From: Amylostereum areolatum
Lineage: Eukaryota > Basidiomycota > Agaricomycetes > Russulales > Stereaceae
Assembly (NCBI GenBank): GCA_012932865.1
Contig: SAXG01000028.1
Span: forward strand, 186,001 to 250,000
Length of the DNA: 64,000 nucleotides
Reading direction: 5' to 3'
Part shown: positions 53,238 to 64,000 of the stretch, piece after piece
Position numbering within the stretch: position 1 is the stretch's first letter
Layout of the letters: the number at the start of each line of letters is the position of its first letter
The notes under the pieces: model-generated
Database searches by the model: none
Told to the model about the DNA's origin: nothing
Seen by the model: the letters and a program-made list of their open reading frames with translations, nothing else
Translations under genes and position numbers: made by a program

Positions 53238-55217
53238 TCATTCGGGACCATCACTGAATTCTGGCAGCACCGTCACATCCGCCTCTTGCGCGAACCGGTA
53301 CGAAACTTGGATGCATCTCATAAGCGTGCTGAATGGGAAGAAGAAGATACGGGGAAAGAACTCACAGAGACGATTATAACCCGAGTCCAGAGGATATCCG
53401 AATTCCATTTCCTGGTGGTAGGCGTGAGTGGGCCACACCAGGCCGCACCCGGAGTGAGGGCTGTTGCGGGGGAATTTCGCGCGACGATAGCCAGCGTTTC
53501 GTCCGTTGCGGTTATGGGGGCTATCTGTGCTGGCGTACAAGGTCTGTCGTTCGTCGTCCCATAAGAGCGCGCCGACTTCATTGTTGCCTGTACTGATTTC
53601 ATAGATCGACGCTCTGGCTCTGGCGTCCCACACTTTGATCTGTTCCGATGACGTTCCACCAATGATCACGACTGCTCAAACACGTCCAGTCAGAACGTGA
53701 GGATGAGAGATTTGGATGTACGCACAAGGATGATCCCCAATTTGCTCGTAGAGAACGGACTCAATGACTTCGCTCCCGTGTTCAATGGCCCACACCGGCA
53801 CAGGAAGCCGCGAATCAAAGAAGCGAACGCCTCCATCCCGCGCGCCGGTGACGAAGCAGTGGGGATCGGCCGCGTTCGTCCCGAAAGAGTCGACGAAAGC
53901 CCCATGACCGACAAACCGAGAGACGACTCGTTGCGTCTCAAGGTCGACGGACGCAATCGAGTACTTCTGTTTGTACCGGACTAGCATCTGATTCGGATCG
54001 CTCGGGTGGCTCTTCCAAACATCGATGTTGGCCAATGCATCCGAAGTGACCGTCGTGGTGGCTGGAGCTCCCGTCGACGCCTCGATTTCTCCGGACGTGT
54101 AGTCCCGTGGGGTGTCGAAGAAGTCCCAGGTCATCTCTTCACCAATCCGCGTCCTTCCCCTCTCACCGTGCGTGGGCATGGCGTCGATATCCCATATCGC
54201 GATACCCTTTTCGCCCGATCGAAACAATTTGGCGCCGCCCTCGCGAACAGATATGGCCCCCGAATGATCCCAACTCTTGAGCGTGTGGACTGGCAGGCTG
54301 GTGACAAGTCCGCCGTCGTGGACCGTCCACCGATAAGACTTGATACGCTCTTTATCGGCAAGGTAGACCAACTGGCGAGAAGGGTCCAGGTGGAAATGAC
54401 GTGCGGCATCCGATAGTCGGACGTTCACGTCTTCATAGTCGCTGTTTGAACCTGGCTCGGGATGGTTGAGATTGTACAGCACGAGACAAGGGTTGCGCAG
54501 GCTGTCGCCGCCGACGCCGACAGCAGCAAGAATACCACCGGCCTGAATAAGGCCGATGGAATGGTACGTTCGCCTGGAACGGACTTCGCACCGAGCTTCG
54601 AAAAATGCCTGAAGATGGGGGTTAGGCGAGGGTGGAGGGGATGGTGGAGTTTGGGAGAACAGGGCAAGGGGTGTGGTGTGTACATTGGGCTGACGGGCGG
54701 GGTCGTATGGTTTGACTACGATCTGGTCGTAGACCTCTGCGGTCAATTCGCAGGTTTCGTTGAGCATTGGTGATAAATTTGGGGCGGAGAGGATTCATAC
54801 TGTAGCAGAGGACGCACCCTTCAATTGGTCTTTAGAGATTTGTGGGGATGCCATAGCCATGATCGCGAGGAACTCCTTCGCGTTGCTATCAGCTTCACGA
54901 CCTGGCAGTTAGACATTGAGAGTCGAGTTGACTTGGGATCATACGCACATAAATTGACTTTCACTTCTTCCTTCACGACATTCCCGCAGAACAAAGGGAT
55001 GGTCCCGGTGTCCATCCAGTTCTCCGTGTGCGATCTTTCCAGGATCGTCCTCTCCAAAGTCACCGCGACGTCCACAAGCTCCTCGAGCTCCTCTGCTTCT
55101 AGCATCTCTCCTTCAGTAGCATCGCGCAATGTGTCACATATCTTGGAAAGGAGTCGGTCCCTTGCCTTCGCAACGATTTCGCGCTTGCTAGGTTCTTGCC
55201 TCCGGCGGCGGGCGGGC
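53238..55217 (-). pseudogene. WD40-like protein, 5' exon interrupted by KDZ transposon
   Basis: Exons 55217-54949 (partial), 54901-54818, 54736-53726, 53671-53366 and 53305-53238 join exactly in frame to at least 578 aa. The N-terminal exon reads RRRRQEPSKREIVAKARDRL, an acidic helix (EMLEAEELEELVDVAVTLER), TENWMDTGTIPLFCGNVVKE. The rest contains beta-propeller-type segments: ISVREGGAKLFRSGEKGIAI, SRFVGHGAFVDSFGTN, ARDGGVRFFDSRL, GTSSEQIKVWDARARASIYE, NNEVGALLWDDERQTLYAST. At 55218 it runs directly into the left inverted repeat of the transposon, with no start codon in frame before it. The missing 5' end continues on the far side of the element at 63975-64000 and beyond. MLNET at 54767 is not a start; it lies in an intron. 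Confidence 0.72.
55210..55217. repeat. Left target-site duplication of KDZ element
   Basis: GGGCGGGC, same as 63975-63982. Confidence 0.7.
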
Positions 55218-55218
55218 C

Positions 55219-55515
55219 ACCTGGCCCTCTACGTACTAATAGCTTGTTAGATATCGTGATCCCCCCCCCCTGGCATTATCTAACTAGGTATCAAATGTGC
55301 CCATAAGCCGCCCGCGCGGGCCAGCCCGCGAGGCGCCTTCCTAAATAGGCAGAGGGCAACCGTCAACGCTAAGGGCTCTAGGGCCTCCCGGCTATCCGGC
55401 ACACTGTCCCGACCTCCGTCAGGTCCGTCCCGAAGCCCGCCAGGGCCGTCGGCATCGCCCGCGGAGTCGTCGCCGTCGTTGACGATGAGCGCGACCTCCC
55501 CCGCCCTTGGCTTAT
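55219..55515 (+). repeat. Left terminal inverted repeat of KDZ element
   Basis: Begins ACCTGGCCCTCTACGTAC and runs to about CGCCCTTGGCTTA. Contains a poly-C run and GC-rich palindromes (CCGCGCGGGCCAGCCCGCG). Confidence 0.85.
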
Positions 55516-55836
55516 ATATACAGGACATTGCACATAATATACATATTTCGGAAGCCCTCGAAGCGTAAATCAACACTGTGAGGTTGATAGAGGGCCAAGT
55601 GTCAAGTACAAATTAGTAATTACCCTAGCTAGTGGCCAACACTTGCAACCACGTGACGTTGCAGATTGTTCAGTGCGACTAAGCTAAAGGTACCGTGCCT
55701 GGCCTGACAAGAAAAATGACAAGTCAAGCTTTCAAGTGATGGTTTGAGGCCCTAACTTGATTACATTCAAATCATAGTCTTGATTACATTAAAATCATAG
55801 TGAGCTACTAAAAATGTCGTACTTGACTACAAATGT

Positions 55837-57793
55837 CTAGGTATTATTGATGAAGGTGAAGTCAAAAGAAGGGAGGGCAGACCAGCTATTGTCCCCCAAC
55901 GTCGTCGACGGCACTGGGAGACTAAGCTCCGAGAGATCCCCCATATATACGTCATCAAATGACGTCGACGCGCCCCATGCGGGGTAATTGCTGTCTTCTT
56001 CACCAATCGCCGCAACGTCGTACGTCCGTTTGGTGCCGTGCGAGACGCGGCTGTCCTTGGCCATCAACGCCGCCAGGTCCGATAGCGGCAAGATCAACGG
56101 AGACGCGGGTCCAAGGGTGCGGGACTGGGTAAGTGTGTCGCTGGCGTTCGGTGTTGTCGAGGTTACTGAGGGGGGGGCCGTGAACGAAGTGGCAAGGTCG
56201 GGATGCAAGGGGACGGAGGCTGTGAATGAAGAGATACGTGGGCGCGTGGACGGTGTCGATGTCGTACAAGCAGGTCCTGGAGTTGGGAGCGAGTTGGCGT
56301 GTGTGAATGACGCGGGGACCGGAGGCAATGGGGTGGGGACCAGAGACGACGGGGTGGGAGCTGGAGATGACGGGGTGGGAGCCGGAGACGACGGCGTGGG
56401 GATCGAGAACGATGAGGAGGGAAGCGAAGCGGGGGGGGCAGGAGGTGGGGTGAACTGGGAGGAAGATGGGTCAGGCGCAGCCGCTGCCACTGGAGGCGAA
56501 GGAAGTGCGGGGAGGGCGGGAGACTCGGCTGGCATTGGGAAAAGGCCGCCAGGAGTGGCCCTTTGAATGGCCATTTCCTTGTCCGAGATCCGGTAGAGAC
56601 AGCATGTTCCTGTGAATAGAGCTTGATAGAGTGTGGTCATGTCCTTGCTAGTCTTGATCTCGGACGGGTTGACGGGGGGTCCGTTGAGGGGCCATCCACG
56701 CATGTTGATGTGCAGACGGAGGATCATCTTGACGTACCAATTTGCATACTCGATCCAGACGCCCGCCCTCCCAGTGAGACGGGCTTGACAGGTCGTGAGT
56801 ACAGGAGCAATAAAAAGGACCGAGACATACTCATTTGTTCGTGTAGGATTTCCTGAATTAGCGCCTTCGTTGCGCCCTTCCTATCCTTTCCGGCACTTTG
56901 CTGGGCAAGATGTTTTATTACTCCTGCCAGCCATTGCAGGTAAGCTATCGCAACATGGGAGAGGAAAGACATGAAACCCACCTTGGATTCCAGCGTGTCC
57001 GATGGAAAAGGCCTCGAACCGCTGGCTGACCTCGACGGGCGACATGCGGATTACTTGCAGCAAAAAATCGGCACCCTGGTCGGAGGTATAGACGCTCGGT
57101 GTGCTCAACTGTGTGCCCCTGCTCCGACTCGCCAGAAGAATGAACTCGAGTCCGCTGCGCTGGTGGACACCGTCGAGCTAGACGAAAACAATGAGCCTTT
57201 CTTGCCGACATGAGTGACAGGGCTTCGTACCTCTCCCTTCACCTTCTCCAAGGTCGTCCGGATATCATGAAGTTGCTTCATTGGTTTGCGAACGATGCCG
57301 GTATCCCTTTCCTCGTGGTCGGCTCGGAGAACTTGAAGGAGCACCTCTCGCTGGTCTTCGGAGAGAGTTTCGTGGCCTCCGTTCGCCTCGCCTTCCTTAA
57401 TGATCTCTATGACTTGTTTTTTCGAAGGGTTGTTGGCCCCTGAAAAAGGTTAGTATATGAACCAACCAGACGGAGAACGAGCGTACATTCACCGCGGTCA
57501 ACGCACGCCCAACAAAAGTTGTACGCATTGTATATGTTTGGGGCACGTCGCTCGCTGAATTCCTTCATTGTCAACGACAGGTCCGATGCGACATCGTCGT
57601 AAGCCTTCCGGTGGGTGATGGCGACATTGCTGACTATCTCTCCTACTCTGCGGATGGCGTCAGCGAGAGCTTCGTGGTATGCTTTGTTCGCATCGTGGCG
57701 GGCTTGCCGTTGAGCGTCCTTCTGCTCATCCGATTTCGGCGTGGGCTTCTTGCGTTTTCGAGGGAGAGACGACGAAGTACTACCGATAGTCAT
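55837..57793 (-). CDS. KDZ cargo gene 1, 560 aa, unknown
   Basis: Five exons (57793-57487, 57439-57231, 57108-56982, 56923-56831, 56783-55837) join exactly. The start MTIGSTSSSLPRKRKKPTPK is a basic, NLS-like head. It is followed by a long helical region (HRKAYDDVASDLSLTMKEFS), a YNAYNFCWACVD aromatic stretch, WANNPSKKQVIEIIKEGEAN, a segment with SVYTSDQGADFLLQVIRMSP, LTGRAGVWIEYANWYVKM and a Pro/Ser/Thr-rich C-terminal half ending SFDFTFINNT. No enzyme motif is seen. It lies inside the transposon, so its job is likely linked to transposition or element regulation, but this is inference. I do not recognise the family. Confidence 0.72.
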
Positions 57794-58025
57794 AGGGGGG
57801 ACGGGGGAATTTGGTACAGGGCGTAGAAGAGGGTTACAAATATAAGAGGGAAATAGACGAGCTGCCAGCCCCCCAGACGACGGAGTATGAAAAAATATGA
57901 GGAAAGCAAATATACTACGGCAGAGCTCCATCGTAAGATGCCTAAGTCCAGGCTATTGGAATCAGACAGGGGACGCCATGCTAGACGGAAAAACTCACCA
58001 TCTGAGACATTCACTACCGCCCGCT

Positions 58026-59445
58026 TTAGCCGCGCATGGCACGGACGAATGTGCGTGCGGTTCCGAGGTTGAAGCCTATGGCCATTAGCTCATCTAACTG
58101 TCGCGCTCGCCCAACATTGTTGTATATTTCTTCAACACGTGTGATGACGACGTCGGAAGCTTGAAGCATTTGAAGAAGGTCGATCACGTCGGGGGGGAGG
58201 CTCGTGTATCCATAAGTGCTGAAGACATCTTGATCGGGCTCTGATCGCGGTGGAGCTGTCCTTGACGGACCCGCCGTCTGGGAAGGAAGGGAGGCGGAAG
58301 CGGCCGGTGTACTGGCCCGTGCCGGGACTGGAGACGAGGGCGGCGACATGTCGAAAGGTACAGAGCCCCAGGAGATCGACGAAGGGGCCGATGACAAGCC
58401 CGATAAGAATGACGACACCGACGACGGTCGGAGGCCGCCGATCGAGCTGCGACGGGGCGTGGGCGACGAGGAAGTAGGCTGGGTCGCACTTTTTCCTTTG
58501 CCCTTGTCTGACGGAGCATACGAACTGGTAAAGGGAGGGGGGGGACTACCCGGGAGCGAAAAAGGAGGGAAGGGTGTATCAGGAGAAGGTGTGCGCGAAG
58601 GAGGGGACGGAGATCGGCGCGTCGGCGTCGGTGATGGCGTGCACGGCGGTGACTGCATTGGGGAAGGCGTGTGCTGAGGAGACGGCGGAAAGTCCTGGAC
58701 AACAGGGTCCACACGCATACGCTGGGGATCAATGTACCGCGACGCAACCGCGCGCTGCCGCCAGTCTCGACCAAACATCGGCGCGAGGCGGTCACGGACG
58801 GCTTGCATGATTGCCTCGACGACGCCTTGGAATGCCTCGTTGCCTTGAAGGATGTCGCTGACGGTGAGGCTGACGTTGTTTGCCATCATCCCCGCTGTTA
58901 TGGCCTCCAGACAGAGGTTGGGGTTCAGCTCGCCGTGAACATGCGCGACTATGGTCCCAACGCCACAGACTCGGTCAAGCGCCGCAATCTGAAGCAAGCC
59001 GTATAAGTTGAAGGAATATGTGAGCTCAAAGAAAGGCACATACCAAGTCTCGAATGAGTGCCATGAGACGCAACCGCGTCAGCCGACGATCGCCGGCATG
59101 ACGATCGTACCCTTCGTGCCATCTATCCCTCGGAGTGTGTTGACCGTCGTCTGCCCACCCTTGAACGGCACGCGCCGTTTCCGCCCATAGCGTGGACCGG
59201 CTATCCTGCCATTCGATCTCGAGCGATCGGATGAGGTCCAGGATGCTGGACTCTGTGACCGAGCCCCATGGTTCTCCCGGGATGTCTGCAGACGACGGGG
59301 CCGTTTGATTGCCGTTAGAGGGTGTATGGGGGGTACTGGGATGGAATGGAGTGCCGCCGCGAGGTGTATAGGTGCGGCGATGGGGCGTACCGCCTCGATA
59401 AAAACCTCGTCCATGCTGAGGAGTGCCGCGAGAAGGATTGGACAT
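58026..59445 (-). CDS. KDZ cargo gene 2, 454 aa, unknown
   Basis: Two exons (59445-59044, 58988-58026) give 454 aa starting MSNPSRGTPQHGRGF. The head is Gly/Arg/Thr/Pro-rich (GTPHRRTYTPRGGTPFHPS), then a helical stretch (SILDLIRSLEIEWQDSRSTL, RLTRLRLMALIRDL), IAALDRVCGVGTIVAHVHGE, VSDILQGNEAFQGVVEAIM, a long Ser/Pro-rich disordered part and a short helical C-terminus (FNLGTARTFVRAMRG). No family recognised. It sits between the transposase and the other cargo gene, on the same strand. Confidence 0.7.
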
Positions 59446-59978
59446 TTTGAAAAGAGTGAATGAATAAGAAATGAATAAGAGAAGGAGATTCGAAAAAGAA
59501 GAAGAGGGTGGGCTAGGAGAGAGACGAGAGACGAGGAAAGAGACGAGAGACGAGAGACGGGAGACGAGAGACGGGAGAAAGAGGAGGGATGATGGCGGTT
59601 GAGATCAAGTTGATGGGCGTGCGTCCGAATTCGAGAGTCGATCAGTTGACGCGTCTCTCAACTCGCGCAAGTACTCTCACTTGCATGTCCGTCGCACTTG
59701 TTCTTCCTATCGTCATTCAACATCCTCGCCATATACACACATAAACTATGTAACGGCAGCCGTCTACTAGTAACTACTCATACGATATAAATTGCAGCTT
59801 CTTTTTAATACTTAAAGATCTGTTAACCCTGAGCAATGCAACTTGTCCCGAGTGCAACGCGCGTGCGACTCACATAAGACGGCTTCGAGTCTTGCTGGAT
59901 GTTTGAACCTGACCCTGTACAAGTTGAGTAATGCACGCCAAAGAACGTAGACACGAAACAAAGCGGGATCAATCTCAT
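59446..59978. other. Intergenic inside the transposon
   Basis: Includes a GAGACGAGAGACG-type purine-rich repeat at about 59518-59580, upstream of cargo gene 2, and an AT-rich segment. No gene seen. Confidence 0.45.
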
Positions 59979-62900
59979 TCATTCCAGAAGTGACATTTTC
60001 TGTAAGTATGTATGTAGTGCGTCCAACTCATCACCGAAACGATTGTCCTCGTCGGCGTCCACAAGTGTTTCGTCTACAGCGACACCATCGTCGTCGTCTC
60101 CGTCGTTGAAGCTAGGCCTGTGTTCATCATCGACATCGACATCGGTACCCTTGTCACCACCGAGCGGCCCAGAGACCGCATTCACAGCGATCCCGCTCCC
60201 CCGCGTACCGGTATAGCAACGCACATTTTCACTGATCCATCGTATCCGTGTTCGGTGGACGTGGTTCTGTCGAACCCGGTGGGTGAGCATCTGTTCCATC
60301 TCGTGCGCCAGATGGGAGCCTTCGTGGTGAGCATCTTGGATAGCGGCACGCAACTGGGCCTCTTCGTCGCGCATCCAGGTTACGAGACGCCGTATCTCGA
60401 TGTTCAGACGTTCCCGCTCCTCGTGAGCACGTTCGAGCTTGAGGGTGTAAATAGAAGCCTGGCGGTTAGCACTGTCTGTCCACGGTTGTGCGAGAATGTC
60501 CTCGCGAGTCGTCCGGAGCAGTTCAAGCTCAGCAAGGCTACCGTACGTTGAAATGTCCTTCCACTCGAGAGTGGGCCTGTCAATAGTTTTTGCGGCGGCG
60601 TTGTATTTCTTCAGTGCATTCTGGATGGCCTTGCACCGAGTTTTGAGTGACTTGTTGATATGGGTACGCATTTTATATCCTACGGACTCCTGTGAGTACG
60701 CTGCACCGTGACGAGGGTCATAGTAAATAAAAATACCTGTTCCTGTCATTCCTGCCTTCGCAAGCTCGAACAAGCGTTGCACGACCAGACCTTCGAGCTT
60801 GTTAAGGGCCTTCTGGTAATCGCGCGTTGCCAGATATCGAGCAGCGTCCTTCCATTCTTGCGAGTCGGGTGTCCAGCGCTCGATGCCGCGCTCGATCTCG
60901 AGTTTTTGGAGTACGCTTTGGAGCATCTGCAGTGTTTCAAACGCGTGGTTCTTGAGGATGCCGGTGCGGTCGTTCAGTGTCTTCTTCTTCGATGGGTCGG
61001 CCAGCAAGGCCACAGTCTGATCGAAGATTTGACTAGCTTGCACGTCATTTGATATAGATGGGTGGAAATACGGCTAGCGTACCTTGCTTTCTGATATGAA
61101 ATGAGCAGCTCGACGTACTCGCACGCGAAACTGTCTTCTTCTGACTCCTTCTTCCGGCTTTCAAGGAATTTGTGTTCGGCTTGAAGATGTTGGTGGTAAT
61201 CCATGTTGGTCGGTCCCTTGCCGGATTGCAATGCCGAGATGGCGGTAGGGAGTTCGTCCAACATCTGATCAACTTGCTTATAGTTATTCAACAAGAAAGT
61301 TGCTAAGAATACATCAGACGCGCTGCTGCCTGATGTGCGCGAGAAATGGCTCACACAGTTCAGAATACTTATCGTCATCCCATTGCCGCGCGAACAGATC
61401 AATACTTTGTAAGCGATGGAACGGGGACGAGTACCGGGTGATATTCGCAAGACCGTTGAAAGCAGAGAAGATCCGTTCGCAAAGCTCGAGGTCCTCGATA
61501 CCAAATCCGAGGACATGCATAGCATGAAAAAGCAGCTGACAGAGGCGGTTATGTGCATATCCGTGGAATACAGGCACAACCATACGAAGGCGGCGGAGGA
61601 AAGCCTTTTTTGCGAGAGAACTCTTCTTGATCGTGGCAGTGAATGAGCACCCAATATCGTATCCTAACCCGACGTCGTCGCCGAAAATGTCGAGAATGAG
61701 ATCGACAAGCGCGAGAGGGTATTTAGCCCTGTACAAAAAAAGCGTCAGAAACTCATATACGAGATGAGGCAAGGACCTACAGTTCACCGCTTTCAACCAT
61801 ATCACAGAACCACCAAACCATACCGTGTCGGCACGCAGAAAGGAAGATCCTGGTTTCGCGGTATATTGCCCACATACGTTTGAGGTTGTCGTTCATCGCG
61901 GCCTTCCATCGATCAGTGCATGTAGTGTCATGTTCATCGCCGTTGGCTGCGGTAGCCTCCTGTGCGTCCGCTGTCCATGCAACTGGCTTGTCCTTGTCCT
62001 TGTCAGATGCCTACGACCCTGTTTAGCAATCAACAATAACTTAGTTATGCTAAACGTACTTTAGGCCGCTCGGTCCGGGCCTTGACGTCGTAACGGAAGC
62101 GGTTGACAACTTCCTCTGAGACATGATACGTGCTCTGGAACACACGCGGATCTGCCTCGAGGCCTTCGCGCAGACGCACGCGCTTGAGCGATTGGTTACC
62201 ATCGAGGGCGCCGATTACGGCCACCCGTAGCGGAGGGTCGTCTACAAGCTACGTTATGGTATAAAGATCAGTAATCCAATTGCGTTAATGATGATCAATA
62301 ATGTCGTACCTTGTACTGGCACGACGGGCAGGAATGTGTTACCCGCCAGTTCGGGTCTGTGCGCTTCAAGGCCACGTTAATACGGGTCTCAACGCCGCGC
62401 AAGATGCAGAGGTAGACGTCGAAGGTGTCAGTAAACATTCTCCACATCTGCCGACTGTACGGCATCTAAGGTCCCACCTCATCAGCTGGAAATAGCTTCA
62501 ATCATAAAACAGATGCTTACATTGTGCAGGTCGCAGAGGACGCGAACCCATGCCTGGATGCTAACCCGAGGCTGGCGCGCGCGCAGTCTTCGGTAAAGGT
62601 CCAGGGTGCATAGCGAGATCGCAAACGAAACTGTCTTGGGCGCCGAACTTAAGCAGCCTTGACGGAGGAGCGTAGTGTTCGGATGTGGGCTTTCTGGGAG
62701 CTAGAACAGGGCCTTCTTCGGATTATAGTCTGTGCATGATATGTTAGTAGAGTAGCATGCGCAAAGAAAGGGAATCGCACCGTAAACGTCGACATACGGC
62801 AGCATAAACGTGTCGTGTCCGCCAACCTGCGCACTGGTATGGTCGCCCATGTACCACAGGTACACGTCCACCAAAGCCGGCATTTGGTCCTCCCACGCGT

Positions 62901-63465
62901 GATCGGCGTTCCGAATACGCTCCGACCATGTCTGTGTCGAGCGTCGACGAGGAGGCCTGGAAAAGAATGAGGAGGATATGGCACAATTGAAAAGAAAAAA
63001 CCTACTTCCCATTATACGCACGAAGAAGGCCTGCTTCGCCTCCTTCTGCCGAGAGCTCCACTGACATGTCAAGAGGACTATCATCCTCTTCGTCCTCCCA
63101 GGCATCCCCATATGGGCCTTGATCGTCCATATCTTCCGTTCGCGCTCGTTGGGAGGAGGATGGGTCAGACGGGCCGCCTGCGATGTCGTCTATAACTCGC
63201 TTGTTACTGGCCGAAACACCTAAGATAAAAATAAATTAAATGAGCAGCAGTATGGAGAGAAAGAGAACTCACCTTGAAGGGCTTTACGTGCCCTGTCGTC
63301 GAGCTGCTACATCCATCCATCTTGACCGGCTTGCCCAAGTCGCGAGTGGTTGATGTTGAGGGCGGAGGATCGGGACGGGTTGAAGGCTTTCAGCCCACGG
63401 GGAACGTGAGCATCGACCTTCCTCGATGCCTTGCGAAAGCTGTCGAAAGCGCGTGTATTGGACAT
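59979..63465 (-). CDS. KDZ transposase, multi-exon, possibly broken
   Basis: The minus strand encodes the KDZ arrangement. N-terminal part: TWSERIRNADHAWEDQMPAL, VDVYLWYM; then SAPKTVSFAISLCTLDLYRR, HSCPSCQYKL, GALDGNQSLKRV. Core: AKYPLALVDLILDIFGDDVG, LGYDIGCSF, VVPVFHGYAHNRLCQLLFHA, GIEDLELCERIFSAFNGL, ANITRYSSPFHRLQ, YSEL-STFLLNNYKQVDQML (spliced at about 61347-61294). C-terminal part: GYKMRTHINKSLKTRCKAIQ, NALKKYNAAA, LEWKDISTYGSLAELELL and a helical acidic tail ending MSLLE. Two apparent in-frame TAG codons occur, at 63307-63309 and 62701-62703. An unrecognised splice could avoid either, but if real the protein is broken and the element non-autonomous. Confidence 0.78.
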
Positions 63466-63670
63466 GAAGGGAGAGGGAAGGAATGGATGTGCGCCTCGGA
63501 CTTAGGAGTCGCACTGAACGCGATCAACAATGTCACGTGGTCGTGAGCGTTGGCCACTGGCAGTGGCCAAGACAATTACTACTGACAAATGGGTTCTGAA
63601 AACCTCACAGCTTGAATGTACGAATTAGTAGCTTCAAAAACATATATATTATGTATAGGCTATAGTACAG

Positions 63671-63974
63671 TTAAGCCAAGGGCGGGGGAGGTCGCGCTCA
63701 TCGTCAACGACGGCGACGACGACTCCGCGGGCGATGCCGACAGCCCTGGCGAGCTTCGGGACGGACCTGACGGAGGTCGGGAAAGGTGTGCCGGATAGCC
63801 GGGAGGCCCTAGAGCCCTTAGCGTTGACGGTACCTGCCCTCTGCCTATTTAGGAAGGCGCCTCGCGGGCTGGCCCGCGCGGGCGGCTTATGGGCACATTT
63901 GATACCTAGTTAGATAATGCCAGGGGGGGGGGATCACGATATCTAACAAGCTATTAGTACGTAGAGGGCCAGGT
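63671..63974 (-). repeat. Right terminal inverted repeat of KDZ element
   Basis: Reverse complement of the left repeat with a few differences, ending CCAGGT next to GGGCGGGC. Confidence 0.85.
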
Positions 63975-63982
63975 GGGCGGGC
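63975..63982. repeat. Right target-site duplication of KDZ element
   Basis: GGGCGGGC, same as 55210-55217. Confidence 0.7.
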
Positions 63983-64000
63983 GTCGTGCCTTCGTCATCT
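63975..64000 (-). pseudogene. Distal piece of the interrupted WD40 gene exon
   Basis: On the minus strand this short edge reads D-D-E-G-T-T-P-A in the frame that continues into the RRRRQEPSKR segment at the other end of the transposon, if GGGCGGGC is counted once. It is very short, so the call rests on the target duplication and frame agreement. The start codon would lie outside the window. Confidence 0.55.

Follow-up and report, generated by a model that had tools for sequence, protein, structure and literature searches.

The closest described counterparts of the element analyzed here belong to the KDZ superfamily of DNA transposons, a group that has been called understudied in the available text of PMC8290104. 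In Cryptococcus neoformans, three elements of proven activity (KDZ1, KDZ2 and KDZ3) are described in the accessible part of PMC12810828 as ∼9-11 kb long, with terminal inverted repeats (TIRs) of 139-241 bp, a KDZ transposase domain and a CxC1 domain. KDZ1 is flanked by 8-bp duplications and KDZ2 and KDZ3 by duplications of 4-8 bp, and new insertions of these elements were recovered in FRR1, with introns and exons named as sites for KDZ2 and KDZ3. Going by that text, insertion of a KDZ element into an exon is an already documented type of event and an ordinary mutation. Other members are outlined in the accessible part of PMC12730594, where Kyakuja of Laccaria bicolor has 7-bp duplications, CA..TG termini, no TIRs and a TET/JBP gene, and where Zisupton has TIRs and 8-bp duplications, the latter also being given for Zisupton-1_PGr, which represents a Dileera lineage.

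Our literature search found nothing that joins Amylostereum with KDZ elements. The genus includes the woodwasp symbiont A. areolatum, and we examined a 64,000-nucleotide stretch of its genome (the window, corresponding to positions 186001-250000 of contig C104), together with the remainder of the assembly (57,130,172 bp in 182 contigs). We conclude with high confidence that a KDZ transposon has inserted into codon 40 of a WD40 gene in this window, likely by a cut-and-paste reaction that left a 7-bp target-site duplication, and that the encoded protein would thereby be reduced to a short stub. The element and its boundaries are as follows.

55218..63975, minus strand: KDZ-type DNA transposon of 8,758 bp, defined by its inverted repeats, by comparison of copies and by PF18758
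55211..55217, no strand: left copy of the 7-bp target-site duplication GGCGGGC, identical to 63976-63982
63976..63982, no strand: right copy of the 7-bp target-site duplication GGCGGGC, identical to 55211-55217
55218..55517, plus strand: left TIR, defined against the right arm
63667..63975, minus strand: right TIR, defined against the left arm, with an approximate inner limit

Element ends and relation to known KDZ transposons

The transposon begins and ends with CACCTGG...CCAGGTG. An earlier note on this DNA had reported inverted repeats of ∼300 bp at both ends, and indeed the outermost 141 nt of the two arms are identical, while across 300 nt the arms match at 95.8% when gap columns are included. 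The same note had read GGGCGGGC, seen on both sides of the element, as an 8-bp target-site duplication. Those letters are present at both positions, but the duplication proper is only 7 bp long. Two sister copies, located on contigs C98 and C107, carry the same termini CACCTGG...CCAGGTG and are flanked by 7-bp duplications of their own (AGTTTCG and CGTGAGC, respectively). These copies set the element end one base further out than the 8-bp reading does, which was therefore rejected; the eighth G of the right-hand repeat is the terminal base of the element itself, and the limits were corrected to 55218-63975 for the element and to 55211-55217 and 63976-63982 for the duplication. A 7-bp duplication is thus found in all three copies for which both ends were located, a count that omits single-ended or short matches on C153, C139, C100, C161 and C123. 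The match on C153 (78025-78345) is a lone KDZ terminal repeat that is 92% like the one in the window, and no second end belonging to it was seen in the 16.8 kb of sequence inspected. The copy on C107 (37770-47199) has both ends and its 7-bp duplication, and its transposase gene is broken.

Given its PF18758 domain, and ends and target-site duplications that are defined in each of the three two-ended copies, the element can be filed as a member of the KDZ superfamily that combines Kyakuja-like ends with long TIRs. It shares the 7-bp duplication and the CA..TG termini with Kyakuja. However, the two Laccaria bicolor families, as far as the accessible text describes them, lack TIRs, whereas the present element has arms of ∼300 bp, and no TET/JBP gene of the kind borne by such fungal transposons was found within it. 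Similarly, superfamily membership is shared with Zisupton and Dileera, and TIRs with Zisupton, for which they are reported; the duplications given for these lineages are 8 bp, compared with 7 bp in all three of our two-ended copies. The likeness to Cryptococcus KDZ1-3, judged from the accessible description, lies in the KDZ transposase domain, a similar size, the TIRs and insertion into genes. The differences are the consistent 7-bp duplication, the lack of a CxC match when the C98 transposase model is used as query, and two stop codons in the transposase gene.

Genes carried by the element

The element carries three predicted genes, all on the minus strand.

59979..63465, minus strand: transposase gene, 11 predicted exons with 985 codons before the final stop, from a hand-made gene model
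58026..59445, minus strand: passenger gene 2, two predicted exons encoding 454 aa, open, with no Pfam family
55837..57793, minus strand: passenger gene 3, five predicted exons encoding 583 aa, open, with no Pfam family above its cut-off

The presence of a KDZ transposase, which had been recognized from motifs alone, was confirmed by a match of a single exon, predicted exon 8, to PF18758 (E 3.2e-42; 145.1 bits, where the cut-off is 26.6). The KDZ domain is also matched in predicted exon 7, and a TAG within that match lies in the predicted intron that comes next. When the sister copies were aligned with the hand-made transposase model and read accordingly, the C98 gene proved open along the whole model, which scores 256.9 bits against PF18758 in that copy, and the C107 gene proved to be broken by ∼300 extra bases and by frame changes. 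No CxC family was matched by the full C98 model.

In the window copy, the transposase reading frame is interrupted by two internal TAG codons, one at 63309-63307 (residue 53) and the other at 62703-62701 (residue 204). The first is located in a poorly conserved stretch, where only the two sister copies inform the coding assignment. An alternative model, in which an intron over the second TAG yields a stop-free transposase, was rejected, since this position is read as coding in the sister copies and in other fungal KDZ proteins, and we take the second TAG to be a real stop.

The transposase genes of the window copy and of C98 differ at 12%, 6% and 46% of first, second and third codon positions, respectively, and at 46-47% of intron positions. 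This pattern suggests that the protein was kept by selection for most of the time since these copies diverged. We also considered whether the window copy has decayed by a RIP-like process. Changes private to one copy number 216 in the window element and 214 in C98 for C-to-T, and 121 and 150, respectively, for G-to-A. With the C-to-T counts nearly equal and the G-to-A count lower in the window, RIP-like decay was rejected.

Passenger genes 2 and 3 are conserved in both sister copies, with a protein-like pattern of change in each. For passenger gene 2, differences at the third codon position exceed those at positions 1 and 2 against C98 and C107 alike. Two homologues of passenger gene 3 were recovered among 7,986 candidates scored, both from Amylostereum chailletii (P0125 and P0126). 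Passenger protein 3 is identical to P0125 at 457 of 470 compared residues, a count that leaves out the P0125 tail beyond a frame change in the record; across the whole query the identity is 92% at 87% coverage. The opening of P0126 resembles passenger gene 2, and it seems that passenger genes 2 and 3 were merged into one model in this record. A family search of these two genes found no TET/JBP gene.

The split WD40 gene and its uninterrupted relative

The gene that flanks the element on both sides can be modeled as five exons ending at 53238, which would encode 618 residues if uninterrupted. The insertion point is codon 40, in exon 1 of this minus-strand gene.

64101-63983, minus strand: full 5′ part of exon 1, mostly beyond the window, in the next 10 kb of the contig
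63983..64000, minus strand: right part of exon 1 within the window, 18 bp, continuing to the ATG at 64101-64099
54949..55217, minus strand: left remnant of exon 1, from the joined-frame model and homologue alignment
55103..55105, minus strand: residue 78, the nearest in-frame ATG on the left side, a possible restart giving a 541-aa protein
53238..54901, minus strand: four further predicted exons, open, with GT...AG introns, from the gene model and the A. chailletii protein P0001

The proposal that the host frame carries on past the right end of the element, provided that the duplication is counted once, originally relied on the 18 bp (six codons) that the window holds beyond the duplication, which is weak evidence by itself. 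Sequence past 64000 has now been examined, and the proposal is borne out, as the minus-strand frame stays open and exon 1 extends to the ATG at 64101-64099, the sole ATG between the preceding stop and the insertion site. The native start therefore lies to the right of the element, although the claim that the left side has no start codon is too strong, because in-frame ATGs do occur there, the first at 55105-55103 and later ones at residues 108, 144 and 146. Translation from the native start through the element would give 42 native residues followed by 10 from the element and then a stop, for a total of 52. We infer that the WD40 gene is left without its normal product.

A protein search using the joined WD40 sequence listed four proteins. 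The top match, OF83DRAFT_1158930 (P0001) of A. chailletii, is a 614-aa protein that runs through the site uninterrupted and shares its initial methionine with the joined model. It shares 601 identical residues with the joined protein, with 13 substitutions and four gap columns, three of which can probably be put down to another choice of splice acceptor in our model. A run of 57 identical residues (17-73) spans the insertion site. This protein is a close relative, and probably the orthologue, of the gene that is split by the element in A. areolatum. The other three matches, two from Artomyces pyxidatus and one JGI record, do not show the residues flanking the site on both sides. An empty-site homologue carrying both flanks in one open frame, which the earlier note had named as a comparison to make, is thus available at the protein level.

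Cut-and-paste excision usually leaves additional bases behind. Because a length of 7 bp is not divisible by 3 and the A. chailletii frame is clean, this homologue favours the view that no element ever occupied the site in that species. We infer that the empty site, known here at the protein level, is the ancestral state. Together, the element ends, the duplication, the open flanking frames and the intact A. chailletii protein support the original reading of this locus as a gene-disrupting insertion. The locus is a clean natural example of KDZ insertion, in that the ends are fixed, the duplication is 7 bp long and a related species has an uninterrupted relative of the gene, and the split gene is a candidate natural knock-out or truncation of an uncharacterised WD40 gene.

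Two WD40 paralogues lie nearby. One (∼64278-66433, plus strand) is arranged head-to-head with the split gene, with the two start codons 177 bp apart, and has at least three frame changes within 65380-65720, where there is no space for introns. The second (C104, ∼253.9-255.8 kb, minus strand) has at least two frame changes, also with no space for introns. Among the three cluster members found, only the split gene lacks frameshift damage. Open WD40 matches on C25 and C144 reveal that more family members exist. The paralogue loci on these two contigs (at ∼21790 and ∼145379, respectively) are 99.3% identical over 4,041 bp, and represent either allelic contigs or a recent duplication. Since this nearly identical pair is present, the assembly is not strictly duplicate-free. 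A search of the assembly with both flanks of the insertion gave one place for each flank and hence no second allele, and an intact WD40 allele may exist elsewhere, unseen in the assembly.

The residue-78 ATG could still yield a 541-aa protein that keeps the WD40 region, and two alternative readings make use of it. The better of these, though an unlikely one, holds that the insertion is older and tolerated, with the element end driving expression of the N-truncated 541-residue protein. Under this reading, the lack of stops and frameshifts in the remaining WD40 gene, when the transposase has two stops and both neighbouring paralogues are frameshifted, is the pattern expected of selection on the truncated gene. 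However, a very recent insertion accounts for an intact remainder equally well, and the codons separating the element from residue 78, for which the truncated product would have no use, are preserved too, as part of the identical run 17-73.

More improbable still is that residue 78 is the true start of the gene, which would place the element in the promoter or leader and leave the coding sequence unbroken. The ATG at this position is in frame, the WD40 region would be left whole, and the annotated start of P0002, an Artomyces homologue, lies further downstream. Against this, P0001 begins at the upstream methionine and has its 57 identical residues over the site. The residues leading up to this methionine are conserved in A. 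chailletii, and they can still be recognised both in P0003 of Artomyces and in a divergent neighbouring paralogue; it is therefore unlikely that translation natively begins at residue 78. The earlier note had proposed that a start codon on the left side would overturn the disruption; the methionines there are only residue 78 and later ones, downstream of this conserved stretch. Finally, an assembly artefact joining unrelated stretches is scarcely credible, given that the element ends are exact, the 7-bp duplication matches in length those of two sister copies, the flanks fuse into a known protein (P0001), and each flank occurs at a single place in one contig.

Age of the insertion and source of transposase

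We return to the reading in which the element interrupts the coding sequence at codon 40. In the proposed series of events, an 8.8-kb KDZ element would have been pasted into exon 1 of the WD40 gene by cut-and-paste transposition, duplicating 7 bp of target (GGCGGGC) in the process, and the split reading frame would now specify 42 native residues and a further 10 contributed by the element before a stop. The suggestion that this event is fairly recent is upheld as likely, although no date can be attached to it. A recent insertion is probable in view of the perfect duplication and of a remaining WD40 model that keeps its introns and is free of stops and frameshifts. On the other side, the transposase gene with its two stops shows that some time has gone by since selection last acted on this copy, which could point to an older insertion.

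Less certain is the source of the transposase. Given the two stops, either these arose after insertion or an intact sister copy would have supplied the enzyme in trans. We consider it possible, but on balance doubtful, that a transposase-defective element was moved in trans by the diverged C98 sister copy, breaking the last undamaged gene of a cluster of three WD40 genes. The C98 copy has the same end sequence as the window element and internal DNA that is 72-75% identical. If movement occurred in this way, the C98 transposase would recognise ends that are only ∼83% like its own.

A 706-bp piece of the transposase core matches three places in the genome including itself, the other two being 80% and 82% alike; no recent donor copy was found in the genome. 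The element family is probably older than the split between A. areolatum and A. chailletii, and inherited rather than newly acquired, because passenger protein 3 is about as close to P0125 as the host gene is to P0001. Given this family age, the insertion itself probably took place after the species split, or was a polymorphism. No A. chailletii transposase was present among the 120 of 170 matches listed for the C98 model as query.

Across the genome, the KDZ transposase family has at least 155 matches, counted per exon and thus not equivalent to a number of elements. The TET/JBP family (PF12851) has 27 matches, 13 of them over the cut-off and none of the 27 on contig C104. On contigs C149, C14, C164 and C95, KDZ and TET/JBP matches lie no more than 10 kb apart.
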